From assembly GCA_021783515.1 (NCBI GenBank), contig JAJXTV010000006.1, positions 1 through 64,000 on the forward strand: a stretch of 64,000 nucleotides of DNA. The letters are read 5' to 3'. This DNA comes from Nitrospirota bacterium (GTDB lineage: Bacteria > Nitrospirota > Thermodesulfovibrionia > Thermodesulfovibrionales > UBA6898). Shown here piece after piece: positions 5,267 through 60,004 of the stretch. The position numbers and the translations under genes were made by a program. Positions within the stretch are counted from its first letter, which is position 1. Each line of letters starts with the position of its first letter. The notes beneath the pieces were generated by a model. That model was not told where the DNA came from. It ran no database searches and saw only the letters and a program-made list of their open reading frames with translations.

Positions 5267-6082
5267 TTACACCTCCGATTCCAATATGATTTTCTCGATA
5301 TGCTCTATTGTTCTGCCGAGAAACCGTTCGCCGACGTCAAGGAATTTTTCCGGGGAATCCGTGACATAGAACTCGCGGCGGACGGCACCGGGTGCGGACC
5401 GCAGGAGGGACAGGTCCCCGAGGACCGCCCGCATCTCCCGGGCCGTTTCTATTGCCGAGTCGATCAGCCTCACCGACTCTCCCATCACCTTCGACAAGAC
5501 CCCCTTGAGCAGAGGGTAATGCGTGCAGCCCAGAACGAGGGTGTCTATCCCCCGTGTCTTCATCTCCGCAAGGTACCGCTCGGCGGTCATCTCGACGACA
5601 GGTCCCTCGGTCCAGCCTTCTTCAACGAGCGGCACGAAGAGCGGACAGGGCAGCCCGAACACCTCGACCGGCGGGGAGAGCGCCCTGATCGCCGTCGCAT
5701 AGGCCCCGCTGCGTATGGTCGCCGAGGTGCCGATTACGCCGATTCTTCCGGTCCTCGTGGCCGACACGGCCGCCCTGGCGCCGGGCTCGATCACCCCGAT
5801 CACCGGAATGTCGACCGACTGCCGTATCGCCTCGAGGCTGACGGAGGAGACCGTATTGCAGGCCACTACGAGCATCTTGATCTTCTTTGAAAAAAGGAAG
5901 CGCGTGTTCTCGAAGGAATACCGCGTGACGGTCTCGGCGGACCGGGTGCCGTAGGGGACCCTGGCAGTGTCGCCCAGATATATCGTGCCCTCGATCGGAA
6001 GCGTGTCGACGATCTCCTTCAGAACCGTCAGCCCGCCGATGCCCGAATCGAATATGCCTATCGGTCTAGCGGCTTTCTCCAT
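5267..6082 (-). CDS. murI: glutamate racemase
   Basis: 271 residues from the ATG giving MEKAARPIGIFDSG, chosen because homologues begin just before this motif; an upstream in-frame start at 6121 would add 13 unlikely residues. It converts L- to D-glutamate for peptidoglycan. The two catalytic cysteines are visible in ACNTVSS (C75) and GCTHYPLL (C186), with the acidic partner in FDSG near residue 12. The start overlaps the end of the gerM-like gene by 17 bases, implying translational coupling in a cell-wall operon. Confidence 0.96.
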   Translation of the reverse strand: MEKAARPIGIFDSGIGGLTVLKEIVDTLPIEGTIYLGDTARVPYGTRSAETVTRYSFENTRFLFSKKIKMLVVACNTVSSVSLEAIRQSVDIPVIGVIEPGARAAVSATRTGRIGVIGTSATIRSGAYATAIRALSPPVEVFGLPCPLFVPLVEEGWTEGPVVEMTAERYLAEMKTRGIDTLVLGCTHYPLLKGVLSKVMGESVRLIDSAIETAREMRAVLGDLSLLRSAPGAVRREFYVTDSPEKFLDVGERFLGRTIEHIEKIILESEV

Positions 6083-6668
6083 CCGCAATCTTTTCGTCGC
6101 CCGGGAAGTCGTATGACACAATGTTCTTTAACGGATATTTAAGGTAGAAGTGTCCTCCGAGCGTTTCCACCTCTTTCCCTTCGACGAGCACCTTGATGTC
6201 CTGTACGTCCTGGAGATTCGATATAAGGCTCTCATACAGGCCCTTGAGAAGAAGGTATTCCGACAGGGCGTCGCCTTGGAAATTTCTGCGAAGTTCGGCC
6301 GAGAGATCGACGTAGAGAATCTGGGCGGAATCCCTGTAGAGCCCCAGGAGCCTGACGTTCTGCGGAACGGGGGACTGTATCCCGAGGCCGGGCCCCTTGA
6401 AGAATTCCTCGATCACCGCGTCGGCAATGGCGGCCTGTCTTGTCCTGCCGACCACCTTCCTCTCGACGAGCTGGAGGCGGTTGTCTATGGGGAAATAGAG
6501 CCTCAGGGTGAAGAAATCCTCCATGCCCGGGGCAAGTGTCTGCTGGCCTGGCGGCTCCGGTATCTGCTTGTTGGAATGGAAGAAAGTCTGAAAGACGTAG
6601 TAGCCCACGGACGCGCCGATCAGGAAGAGCACGAGGACCAGCGGGATCCACGCCTTTCTAACGCTCAT
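6066..6668 (-). CDS. membrane-anchored GerMN-domain protein
   Basis: 200 residues. One N-terminal membrane helix (about 8-28) is followed by a linker and a GerMN domain (roughly residues 50-165, including the LYFPIDNRLQLVERKV and VRLLGLYRDSAQILYVDLS segments). GerMN was named from the Bacillus germination lipoprotein GerM but occurs widely in non-sporulating bacteria beside cell-wall hydrolases. No lipobox is present here. It overlaps amiC by 11 bases upstream and murI by 17 bases downstream, so a role in murein turnover with AmiC is a reasonable inference. Confidence 0.85.
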   Translation of the reverse strand: MSVRKAWIPLVLVLFLIGASVGYYVFQTFFHSNKQIPEPPGQQTLAPGMEDFFTLRLYFPIDNRLQLVERKVVGRTRQAAIADAVIEEFFKGPGLGIQSPVPQNVRLLGLYRDSAQILYVDLSAELRRNFQGDALSEYLLLKGLYESLISNLQDVQDIKVLVEGKEVETLGGHFYLKYPLKNIVSYDFPGDEKIADGESR

Positions 6669-56790: not shown

Positions 56791-57750
56791 ATGAAATCGG
56801 CCATGACCCGGCTTGTTTTTTCGGCGCTGCTGCTTGTCTGTCTGCTCCCTCCAGTCTCGGTCTCCGCCGGCCCGGCGGAAGGGGAGAGGGTGCTTGCAGT
56901 CGTCAACGGAGAGAAGATCACGCTTTCGGATTATCGCCGGTTTCTCCTCAAGGTGGACCCTTCCCTGACATCGGCGCGTGTCGACGAGGGGCTGCTGAAA
57001 AAGGCGGTGGAAGAAAAGCTTATTCTTCAGGAAGCCTCCCGCAAAGGGGTGCGAGTCAGCGACCAGGAAGTGGAAACGAGCATCCGGGAGTTCCTGAAGG
57101 AACATCGCATCAGCGAAGCTGAATTCGAGAAGAAGATACGCAGTCAGGGGATGTCTCTTTCCGACTACAGGCGATGGCTGAAGGAGGATACACTCGTCCT
57201 CGCCAAGACTGCCGGCAGGGAACTGAACGGAAAAACGGTGGTCGGCGAGCAGGAGGAGAGGGACTATTATGAACGCAACAGGGACCTCTACCGCCAGTGG
57301 CAGGGGGCGGTACAGCTCAAGGCGATCCTTCTCACATTCCACAGCAGGCCTTCGGCCGCGGAGGCGACCTACATGGAACTCAAGGCGATGAAGATAGCCG
57401 ATGAGCTGAGCCGGGGCGAGTCGTTCGAGAAACTCGCCTCGCTCTACTCGGAAGATCCTGCAAAGAAGGCCGACGGGGGGTTCGGGGAATTTCGCGAAGG
57501 CGAACTCATTCCGACGGTCGAGAAGGCGATACTTAGCCTGAGGGAGGGCGGGGTCAGCAATCCTCTCTGGCTGAACGAAGGGCTTTATATCTTCAGACTG
57601 ACAAGTAGGGAGGGGGAGCGGTTTACCCCCTTTGAGAGCGTCAGAGCCGCCATCGGGGGAATACTTCTTAAACAGAAACGGGACGAGCAATATTCGGCCT
57701 GGGTCAGGTCATTATGGGAAAAATCCGATATAACATTCACTGTGCAATAG
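56791..57750 (+). CDS. SurA/PrsA-like periplasmic peptidyl-prolyl isomerase
   Basis: 319 residues. Signal peptide 1-26 (ends SVSAG), SurA-type N-terminal chaperone helices (about 30-150, VVNGEKITLSDYRRFL, EEKLILQEASRKGV), and a parvulin-like domain (about 185-285, LASLYSEDPAKKADGG and FGEFREGELIP). It folds outer-membrane proteins in the periplasm. It starts three bases after the UDG stop and overlaps the next PPIase-like gene by 37 bases. Confidence 0.88.
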   Translation: MKSAMTRLVFSALLLVCLLPPVSVSAGPAEGERVLAVVNGEKITLSDYRRFLLKVDPSLTSARVDEGLLKKAVEEKLILQEASRKGVRVSDQEVETSIREFLKEHRISEAEFEKKIRSQGMSLSDYRRWLKEDTLVLAKTAGRELNGKTVVGEQEERDYYERNRDLYRQWQGAVQLKAILLTFHSRPSAAEATYMELKAMKIADELSRGESFEKLASLYSEDPAKKADGGFGEFREGELIPTVEKAILSLREGGVSNPLWLNEGLYIFRLTSREGERFTPFESVRAAIGGILLKQKRDEQYSAWVRSLWEKSDITFTVQ

Positions 57751-59717
57751 CGTCTCTTCTCTTCCTGCTCCTCCTGGGGCCTGCCGTTGCCGCCCCGCGC
57801 GCGGCCGGCGCGGCAGAGGAAGGCGAGATGGACCTCTTCGATAAGGCATACGAAAGTTATCTCGATTACCATCCCGATATCGCGGCCTCCGCGTTCGGGT
57901 CGTTTGCCGGCCGGTTCCGGCGGAGTTCGGCGCGGGACGCAGCCCTCTATTGGCAGGCCAAAGCGCTCTTGCTGACGGGCCGCGATGCTGAGGCAAAAGA
58001 GATATTCGGGCGGGTCCGCTCGGAGTATCCGACCAGCCCTTTCGCGGATTTTGCGAGGAGGGAGCTTGAAACCCCTCCCGTTGCGGGACAGTGGAGGAGG
58101 GAGCACGAGGGCGGGGAGAAGAAAGAGGAGTATCCGGCAAGGGCCGGCGGAGCGGGGTGCGAAAACGCGCTCAGGAAATCCGAGGCAAGCATGAAGGAGA
58201 TGGAAGAAGGTCTCGCCGGGGTTTCCGGAAAGGAACGTTCGCTTCGGGACGACCTGGCCAAGGCCGCTGCGGAGCTGTCCGCGACGAAGAAGGAACGGGA
58301 CGAGGCGGTTGCGGCGCTGAGAGAGGCGGAGCTGAAGCTTCCCGAGGTGAATGACGTTGCAATCCGGCTCCGGGAACGTGAAAAGTTCCAGAAAGAGCAG
58401 GACGAATACATAAAGAAGCTGAAGGAGGAGAAGGCCGGTCTCGCGGAGGAGGTACGGCAGCGGGACACGAAACTTTCCGATACCGAGAGGACGATCGCCT
58501 TGCTGAAGAGCCGGACGGGTGGGGGGCCGGAGGAGAAGAAGGCCGCAGACGGTGCGGAAAGCCTGAAACTCAGAAAGGCGATTGAGGAGAAAGACAGGAG
58601 GATAGAGGAGCTGACCGTTGCGGCGCGTGAAAGGGATAACGCGCTGGCCGGGAAGGACGAACTGCTGAAGCAGTCTGCCGGCCGGCAGTCGGCGTGCGAG
58701 GAAAAGACGAAGGAGCTTGAAGCGGCGACGACAGAGGTGAAGCGGCTCAGGGACGCGTATGAGAAATCGAAGGCGGAGCTCCCGAGGCGGGATGAGGGAA
58801 GACGGGCAGAGGAGGCAGTCTCCCGGCGTGGCCCCGGTAAGCAGGCCTCCGGCGCGGCGCCGAAGGATCCTTCGGAAACAGGCCCGGAGAACGGGTTGAA
58901 GGACGGAGAGGCCCCGCTGAAGAAGCGTCTTGCTCAGTTGGACGCCCCGGCCGTGGCGATAGCAGGGAAGACCTATTCCATGAGGGAGATCGACGAGGAA
59001 AGCCGGACCGCGGCGAGGGTGCTGTCGAAGACCGGATTCAGCGCATCATGGAGAAGGGGAGACGCGTTTGATGACTTTGTTGCCGGCAGAGCGCTGGCCG
59101 CAAGGGCGACGAAAGATGACAGAACGCAGGCGTCGGCGCAGATGCAGGAGTACGCGAAGAAGTACCCTCTCACGGATGAGGAGAAGAGATCCCTTGCGCT
59201 TCTCCTGACGGCGGAGAACGTAATCAGGAGGAGGGAGGCCGAAAAGCTTCCCGACGAAGAGGTCCTGAAGAAATATTACGAAGACCACAAGGAAGACTAT
59301 CTCGTGCAGAAAGAGGAGCGTTTCGTGAAGTATCTTGTGATGAAATACCGCAAGACGGACAGGCTGGGCAGCGTTGCGCTCGTTTCGGAGCTTCAACGCG
59401 AAGCGGGCAAGGGAAAGAAGCTTGAGGAGATCGCGCGACCGCACGCCGGATCGGTCGCACTGAGGCGGGCAAAAATGGAGGACCTTCCCGCGTGGATAGC
59501 GGAGAAGATCCGCGTGCTGAAAGACGGGGAGATCAGCAGCATATTCACGGAAGATCAGTTCATCATGCTCAGGATGAGGGTAAGGTCCCCGGTGTACCGG
59601 ACGTATGAAGACGCAAAGGATGAGATCGCGAAAAGACTTTCCCCCCGGGCCGCGGCCCCGGCGGACCTCGATTCGTGGCTCGCCGGTCTCCGGAAAGAGG
59701 CGGTAGAGGTGAAATGA
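57714..59717 (+). CDS. exported TPR/coiled-coil/PPIase-like protein of unusual architecture
   Basis: 667 residues. Signal peptide 1-27 (ends PAVAAP). Residues about 35-110 resemble the TPR module of YbgF/CpoB or BamD (YLDYHPDIAASAFGSFA, AREIFGR-like). About 125-360 is a long charged coiled coil with many Lys/Glu. About 505-650 resembles SurA/PpiC: NVIRRREAEKLPDEEVLKKYYEDHK and then LPAWIAEKIRVLKDGEISSIF, as in parvulin C-termini. I know of no standard protein with this order. It overlaps the preceding PPIase gene by 37 bases and the next one by ATGA, so the three are linked. Confidence 0.65.
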   Translation: MGKIRYNIHCAIASLLFLLLLGPAVAAPRAAGAAEEGEMDLFDKAYESYLDYHPDIAASAFGSFAGRFRRSSARDAALYWQAKALLLTGRDAEAKEIFGRVRSEYPTSPFADFARRELETPPVAGQWRREHEGGEKKEEYPARAGGAGCENALRKSEASMKEMEEGLAGVSGKERSLRDDLAKAAAELSATKKERDEAVAALREAELKLPEVNDVAIRLREREKFQKEQDEYIKKLKEEKAGLAEEVRQRDTKLSDTERTIALLKSRTGGGPEEKKAADGAESLKLRKAIEEKDRRIEELTVAARERDNALAGKDELLKQSAGRQSACEEKTKELEAATTEVKRLRDAYEKSKAELPRRDEGRRAEEAVSRRGPGKQASGAAPKDPSETGPENGLKDGEAPLKKRLAQLDAPAVAIAGKTYSMREIDEESRTAARVLSKTGFSASWRRGDAFDDFVAGRALAARATKDDRTQASAQMQEYAKKYPLTDEEKRSLALLLTAENVIRRREAEKLPDEEVLKKYYEDHKEDYLVQKEERFVKYLVMKYRKTDRLGSVALVSELQREAGKGKKLEEIARPHAGSVALRRAKMEDLPAWIAEKIRVLKDGEISSIFTEDQFIMLRMRVRSPVYRTYEDAKDEIAKRLSPRAAAPADLDSWLAGLRKEAVEVK

Positions 59718-60004
59718 CCGGCTTTGTCTGCGGCAGTTGCAAGTACGGCTATGACGTCAGGCCCGGCGGCCAAAAACCTTCGCCGGGAACGGTCTGGTGC
59801 GGCCAGCGCGGCATGCAGATGGCGAAGAACCGCCAGATGCCCTGCCACGTACGTTTGGGGCGCGCTCAGGCGCGTCATTGTATCGACTGCAAAAAGGCGA
59901 AGATGCTGAAACCATCCGGGGAGACGCCGCAGCTCGGGAACGTCTGGTGCGAAAAGAAACATATCGAAATCAATAAACAGCGAAACATGGAATGCTTCGA
60001 GTAG
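59714..60004 (+). CDS. small protein with a duplicated Cys motif
   Basis: 96 residues from an ATG overlapping the upstream TGA. It is two similar halves: C-x-x-C ... P-x-x-G-x-V-W-C ... N-R-x-M-x-C in the first and C-x-x-C ... P-x-L-G-x-V-W-C ... Q-R-N-M-E-C in the second. Eight cysteines in all. No signal peptide. It could bind two metal ions or clusters. I recognise no family. Confidence 0.6.
   Translation: MTGFVCGSCKYGYDVRPGGQKPSPGTVWCGQRGMQMAKNRQMPCHVRLGRAQARHCIDCKKAKMLKPSGETPQLGNVWCEKKHIEINKQRNMECFE

Follow-up and report, generated by a model that had tools for sequence, protein, structure and literature searches.

We found that a small protein of 96 aa encoded in the 64,000-nucleotide stretch of Nitrospirota DNA analyzed here (the window) belongs to an undescribed family conserved mainly in one Nitrospirota group, but that its predicted fold appears to be a known one, resembling that of HiPIP-like [4Fe-4S] domains. 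At a rough probability of 0.55, we read it as a tandem HiPIP-like protein with two clusters, a reading that draws on the conservation of its cysteines and on structure models. The open reading frame is a real gene. The dN/dS ratio of the family was approximately 0.04 to 0.1 for the pairs with computable dS, and the family is under purifying selection; a chance reading frame or a chance repeat was ruled out by shuffle tests, dN/dS, and the homologues. The gene and its parts are listed in Table 1.

Table 1. Coordinates in the window of the tandem four-Cys protein gene and its elements
Feature	Position	Strand	Basis
Tandem four-Cys protein gene, stop codon included	59714..60004	+	Open frame; homologues with invariant Cys; dN/dS
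Repeat 1, residues 4-46 (Cys 6, 9, 29, 44)	59723..59851	+	Repeat profile; AlphaFold model of the repeat
Linker, residues 47-53, variable among family members	59852..59872	+	Alignment
Repeat 2, residues 54-96 (Cys 56, 59, 79, 94)	59873..60001	+	Repeat profile
AGAGGTG, likely ribosome-binding site just 5′ of the ATG	59705..59711	+	Read from sequence
ATGA, shared by the start codon and the stop codon of the PPIase-like gene	59714..59717	+	Sequence

The original prediction, made from the DNA sequence, described two halves with four cysteines each at the same spacing, and both halves indeed read C-x2-C-x18-W-C-x14-C; Cys44 is separated from Cys56 by 11 residues. Compared without gaps, the two halves shared 14 identities at 41 positions, a score that lay at z = 9.2 against full shuffles and at z = 6.8 against shuffles keeping the Cys positions, and that none of 20,000 shuffles reached, full and Cys-kept alike. 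A profile of the N-halves matched the C-halves of the family with E values down to 4e-15 (below 1e-12 for the best dozen), whereas its best E value against Cys-fixed shuffles was 7e-4. Since both the z-scores and the profile matches exceed what Cys-kept shuffles yield, the duplication is real. Together with the invariance of the cysteines, these results uphold the proposal of a clean internal duplication with two putative four-Cys metal centers. A repeat profile, which included the protein's own sequence, matched positions 59726-59851 (E = 4.7e-21) and 59873-60001 (E = 3.2e-24). Single-repeat homologues, which it had been suggested to look for, did not appear: in 396 genomes of the phylum, the single-repeat profile gave two matches in each of 27 carriers and otherwise three matches that were short or interrupted (G360, G102, and G155), with no independent single-repeat homologue among them. 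In one partial locus (L104; G426:C369:2400-3600), the C-half is intact and the N-half is unreadable in frame upstream, suggestive of decay of this copy or of an error in the assembly.

The clear members found in these 27 of the 396 Nitrospirota genomes all belong to the order of the window, which we take, from contig titles and the taxonomy, to be Thermodesulfovibrionales. Within that order, the family was present in 36 of 176 genomes (families f1, f2, f4, f9, f11, and f12), a count that leaves out G360 and G399, with their short, interrupted matches, and includes the partial G426. A tblastn search confirmed relatives on nine genome contigs: the titles of eight denote Nitrospirota-type MAGs or genomes, and that of the ninth Geobacter sp. 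UBA9964. UBA9964 was the sole carrier among 395 genomes sampled across its phylum, and a clear member was found in 2 of 48 genomes of its family. In these two carriers (L006, around 6001-6276, and L105), the gene lies in differing surroundings, and when the two Geobacter-type genomes were compared, the gene alone aligned (75% over 269 bp). The gene may have been transferred to them from Nitrospirota, or it may reflect misbinning.

All eight cysteines and both tryptophans are invariant in the 29 aligned members, contrary to the outcome that the original prediction had named as its refutation, and the spacing is kept except for one-residue changes in the linker. Further residues invariant in these members are G25, T26, R32, R40, G69, G75, and R90. 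The Asn/Met-rich ending ascribed to each half stood only in its Met part: family-wide, each half ends in approximately K-x-R-x-M-x-C-F, with the Arg invariant and the Met mostly kept, but the Asn is not conserved. The original prediction knew of no family with this pattern and named a characterized profile matching the whole protein as its other refutation; Pfam, NCBIfam, PHROGs, PADLOC, and PDB sequences gave no convincing match. The profiles biotin_BsaP (E = 0.021), DUF7360 (E = 0.0028), and DUF1067 (E = 0.0033) were matched by one or a few members and phrog_14792 (E = 0.0028) by two; as none of these matches was family-wide, we take them as chance. An origin as a phage or plasmid gene was likewise rejected, as searches of phages, plasmids, and viral contigs gave no relative at the sensitivity applied; matches to Halfdan phages (E = 0.1 to 0.2) straddle the boundary between the portal and head-morphogenesis genes.

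In close relatives, the gene lies downstream of the CBS, TsaE, NAD kinase, and UDG genes, with either two PPIC-type PPIase genes or none between UDG and it. The ATGA overlap with the PPIase-like gene upstream, to which the original prediction pointed, is present in the window and has an equivalent in the nearest relative (L011), but it is not conserved past near relatives. It could suggest that the 96-aa and PPIase-like proteins act as partners. However, L003 and L045 carry the gene directly after UDG without intervening PPIase genes, and G320, a genome of the same genus that is ~100% complete, has the same gene run and both PPIase genes, yet lacks the 96-aa gene between the second PPIase and P-type ATPase genes, its site in L011. 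Furthermore, the upstream PPIase proteins have a signal-like start, which the 96-aa protein does not. As the gene and the PPIases each occur without the other in relatives, the overlap is not functional evidence, and a partnership with the PPIases, largely refuted, is highly improbable.

Comparison of the G320 locus (L114; G320:C27:12000-27000) at 5542-5643 with L011 at 6001-6416 shows the flanking PPIase and P-type ATPase genes kept. The bases at the PPIase stop in G320 are still ATGAC, as at the gene start in the window; the gene may therefore have been lost or gained just past the overlap. The 667-aa product of the upstream gene in the window (57714-59717) starts with a signal-like sequence, matches TPR_6, is charged and coiled-coil-like over a long middle part, and at its C end weakly matches Rotamase_2; this protein diverges fast (47% identity even within the genus) beside much better kept neighbors.

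In most other carriers, the gene sits in unrelated places, next to genes that by eye look like those for Kdp potassium transport, a cation diffusion facilitator, RarA, BipA, RibD, and an aminotransferase, among others. In L048, L050, and L051, all of one genus (g2), a cation diffusion facilitator-like gene lies ~65 bases upstream on the same strand, again by eye. No neighbor gene was recurrent among the carriers. Because its neighbors change from carrier to carrier, the gene seems to enter, shift within, and leave genomes independently of them.

The small subunit of 4-hydroxyphenylacetate decarboxylase (HPAD) and the HiPIP-like fold had been singled out as a lead ahead of the fold searches. 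AlphaFold2 modeled the whole protein (29-row alignment) with a pLDDT of 66 and a pTM of 0.39, and one repeat (60 rows, both halves) with a pLDDT of 75.5 and a pTM of 0.47, i.e., with modest confidence in each case; both models place a helical turn close to the CxxC and carry the W-C on the first strand of a hairpin. When the PDB was searched by Foldseek with the whole model, the first match was 2y8n_B, the HPAD small subunit, at an insignificant E value of 0.69, and the highest probability listed belonged to a HiPIP. The search with one repeat was likewise insignificant (E = 2.1). In VIA-align comparisons with the whole model, 3 of 183 chains (2y8n_B and two HiPIPs) reached a Z of at least 2; with one repeat, 6 of 165 (2y8n_B and five HiPIPs) did so. 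Chain 2y8n_B aligned over 35 residues with both the whole model (Z = 3.4, rmsd 1.7 Å) and one repeat (Z = 3.5, rmsd 2.1), and the five HiPIPs aligned with one repeat over 38 to 40 residues (Z = 2.0 to 2.6, rmsd 1.9 to 2.2 Å). The aligned HiPIP range, residues 40-79, includes all four ligands (Cys 43, 46, 63, and 77), and its ends line up with the two outermost Cys of the repeat. Z values of 2 to 3.5 are low, as expected with a 44-residue domain, and are therefore support for the fold, not proof. Judged from these models, a HiPIP-like fold of the 96-aa protein is quite probable. At the sequence level, no link to HPAD-gamma, MasC, or HiPIP was detectable by hhalign: comparisons with single sequences of each found little beyond CxxCK, with scores within the range of Cys-fixed decoys, so common descent with them is not shown.

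Our model is that this small, basic protein would consist of two tandem HiPIP-like domains, in each of which its own four cysteines (the CxxC, the Cys of WC, and the last Cys) would hold one [4Fe-4S] cluster, giving two clusters per protein as in the HPAD small subunit. The first Cys, at residue 6, leaves no space for a signal sequence, and the protein should therefore be cytoplasmic. It would most likely be a stand-alone electron-transfer protein, its positive surface docking to acidic redox partners encoded elsewhere, and the unstable gene neighborhood is as expected of a general electron carrier. Granted the clusters, a carrier is somewhat better favored than a subunit or a sensor; electron transfer in addition to the whole two-cluster arrangement is a more tentative proposal, and one that we regard as rather doubtful. 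All family members have a pI of 9.1 to 10.5, and their net charge of +7 to +15 is conserved; such a strong positive charge also suits nucleic-acid binding, which counts against the two-cluster reading.

The same charge, along with the small size and the Cys4 sites, would fit a two-site zinc protein, in which the four cysteines of each half bind one Zn(II) and the protein acts structurally or as a regulator by binding to RNA, DNA, or an acidic protein. L37Ae-type ribosomal zinc ribbons, which are likewise small, basic, and four-Cys proteins, were in fact among the weak Foldseek matches for one repeat. However, zinc ribbons have two CxxC knuckles per site, whereas the 96-aa family has one per repeat, invariantly, and the L37Ae-type chains superpose at ~7 to 8 Å rmsd when the alignment covers most of the domain. 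None of the zinc-ribbon chains reached a Z of 2 among the 165 chains compared with one repeat, a level attained by HiPIP-like chains alone. We consider zinc an unlikely alternative and [4Fe-4S] the likely ligand of the two. Zinc binding would make the protein one more orphan small zinc protein.

If the clusters are present, they might instead sense oxygen, NO, or redox state and alter the binding of nucleic acid or protein, making the 96-aa protein a cytoplasmic Fe-S sensor or regulator. The conserved charge and a stand-alone gene that can be lost are consistent with this, as are heme-copper oxidase-type genes in most carriers (26 of 36, versus 75 of 140 non-carriers), although the oxidase trend is weak and ignores kinship, and no DNA-binding motif was recognized in the protein. 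Such a sensor is improbable in our estimation. We give similarly little weight to an accessory subunit that stabilizes or gates some enzyme not of the glycyl radical type, in the way of the HiPIP-like subunits in HPAD, BSS, and MASS. The nearest fold neighbor is a subunit of this kind, and the HiPIP-like subunits of HPAD, BSS, and MASS aid folding or conformational control (PMC12358834, PMC12590467); on the other hand, no neighbor gene recurs across the carriers. A role as a subunit of a glycyl radical enzyme itself was not supported, because no PFL-like glycyl radical enzyme (PF02901) was found in the genome of the window and such enzymes do not co-occur with the family in its order (2 of 36 carriers versus 7 of 140 non-carriers).

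Thus far, HiPIP-like folds have been those of single-domain periplasmic carriers and of glycyl-radical-enzyme helper subunits, and the role of the cluster in the latter is still debated (PMC12358834, PMC12590467). It is possible, and we propose it with reserve, that the 96-aa family is a new stand-alone cytoplasmic class of tandem HiPIP fold with two [4Fe-4S] clusters, without detectable sequence relation to periplasmic HiPIPs or glycyl-radical-enzyme subunits, which would serve as a dedicated redox carrier or sensor of Nitrospirota and was probably passed to a few Geobacter relatives. If so, the HiPIP-like fold would have an independent cytoplasmic job in genomes without a glycyl radical enzyme, and the family would offer a small free-standing protein on which that job is testable.

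Among known systems, a rubredoxin-like pattern (C-x2-C-xn-C-x2-C) is absent from the 96-aa protein, since 14 residues separate the third Cys of each half from the fourth. Classical HiPIPs (1CKU, 1EYT) have their ligands in the same order, as C-x2-C-x16-C-x13-C, with similar spacings of 2/16/13 versus 2/19/14 in the 96-aa protein. They are exported to the periplasm by means of a leader and carry one cluster, whereas the 96-aa protein is leaderless and has two domains; their profile (PF01355) gave no match at E ≤10 for the window protein or at E ≤1 for the 29 members. HPAD, BSS, and MASS have HiPIP-like subunits, each with one [4Fe-4S] cluster or two, and the beta and gamma subunits of BSS and MASS have a CX2CXnCXnC motif, a HiPIP-like fold, and one [4Fe-4S] cluster (PMC12358834, PMC12590467). 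Against the two-cluster reading, MASS-delta shows that one Fe may occupy a predicted Fe-S Cys4 site instead (PMC12358834). Unlike the 96-aa protein, the accessory subunits of BSS and MASS are single-domain and bound to a glycyl radical enzyme, and MasC has no detectable sequence relation to the family.

The closest counterpart is HPAD-gamma (PDB 2Y8N chain B, 2YAJ), which works with a glycyl radical enzyme, whereas the genome of the window has none. No sequence similarity to the family was detectable beyond CxxCK, and the family gave no convincing match in Pfam, NCBIfam, or PDB sequences. Its first domain has, from the sequence, a His where the repeat of the 96-aa protein has its first Cys, this His being a ligand, and its second domain reads C-x2-C-x13-C-x17-C, a pattern similar to C-x2-C-x18-W-C-x14-C but of differing spacing. 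HPAD-gamma is nevertheless the top fold neighbor of both the whole model and the single-repeat model, and, like the 96-aa protein, it is a protein of ~10 kDa with two tandem Cys-rich domains, in which two [4Fe-4S] clusters correspond to the two predicted Cys4 sites of the 96-aa protein.
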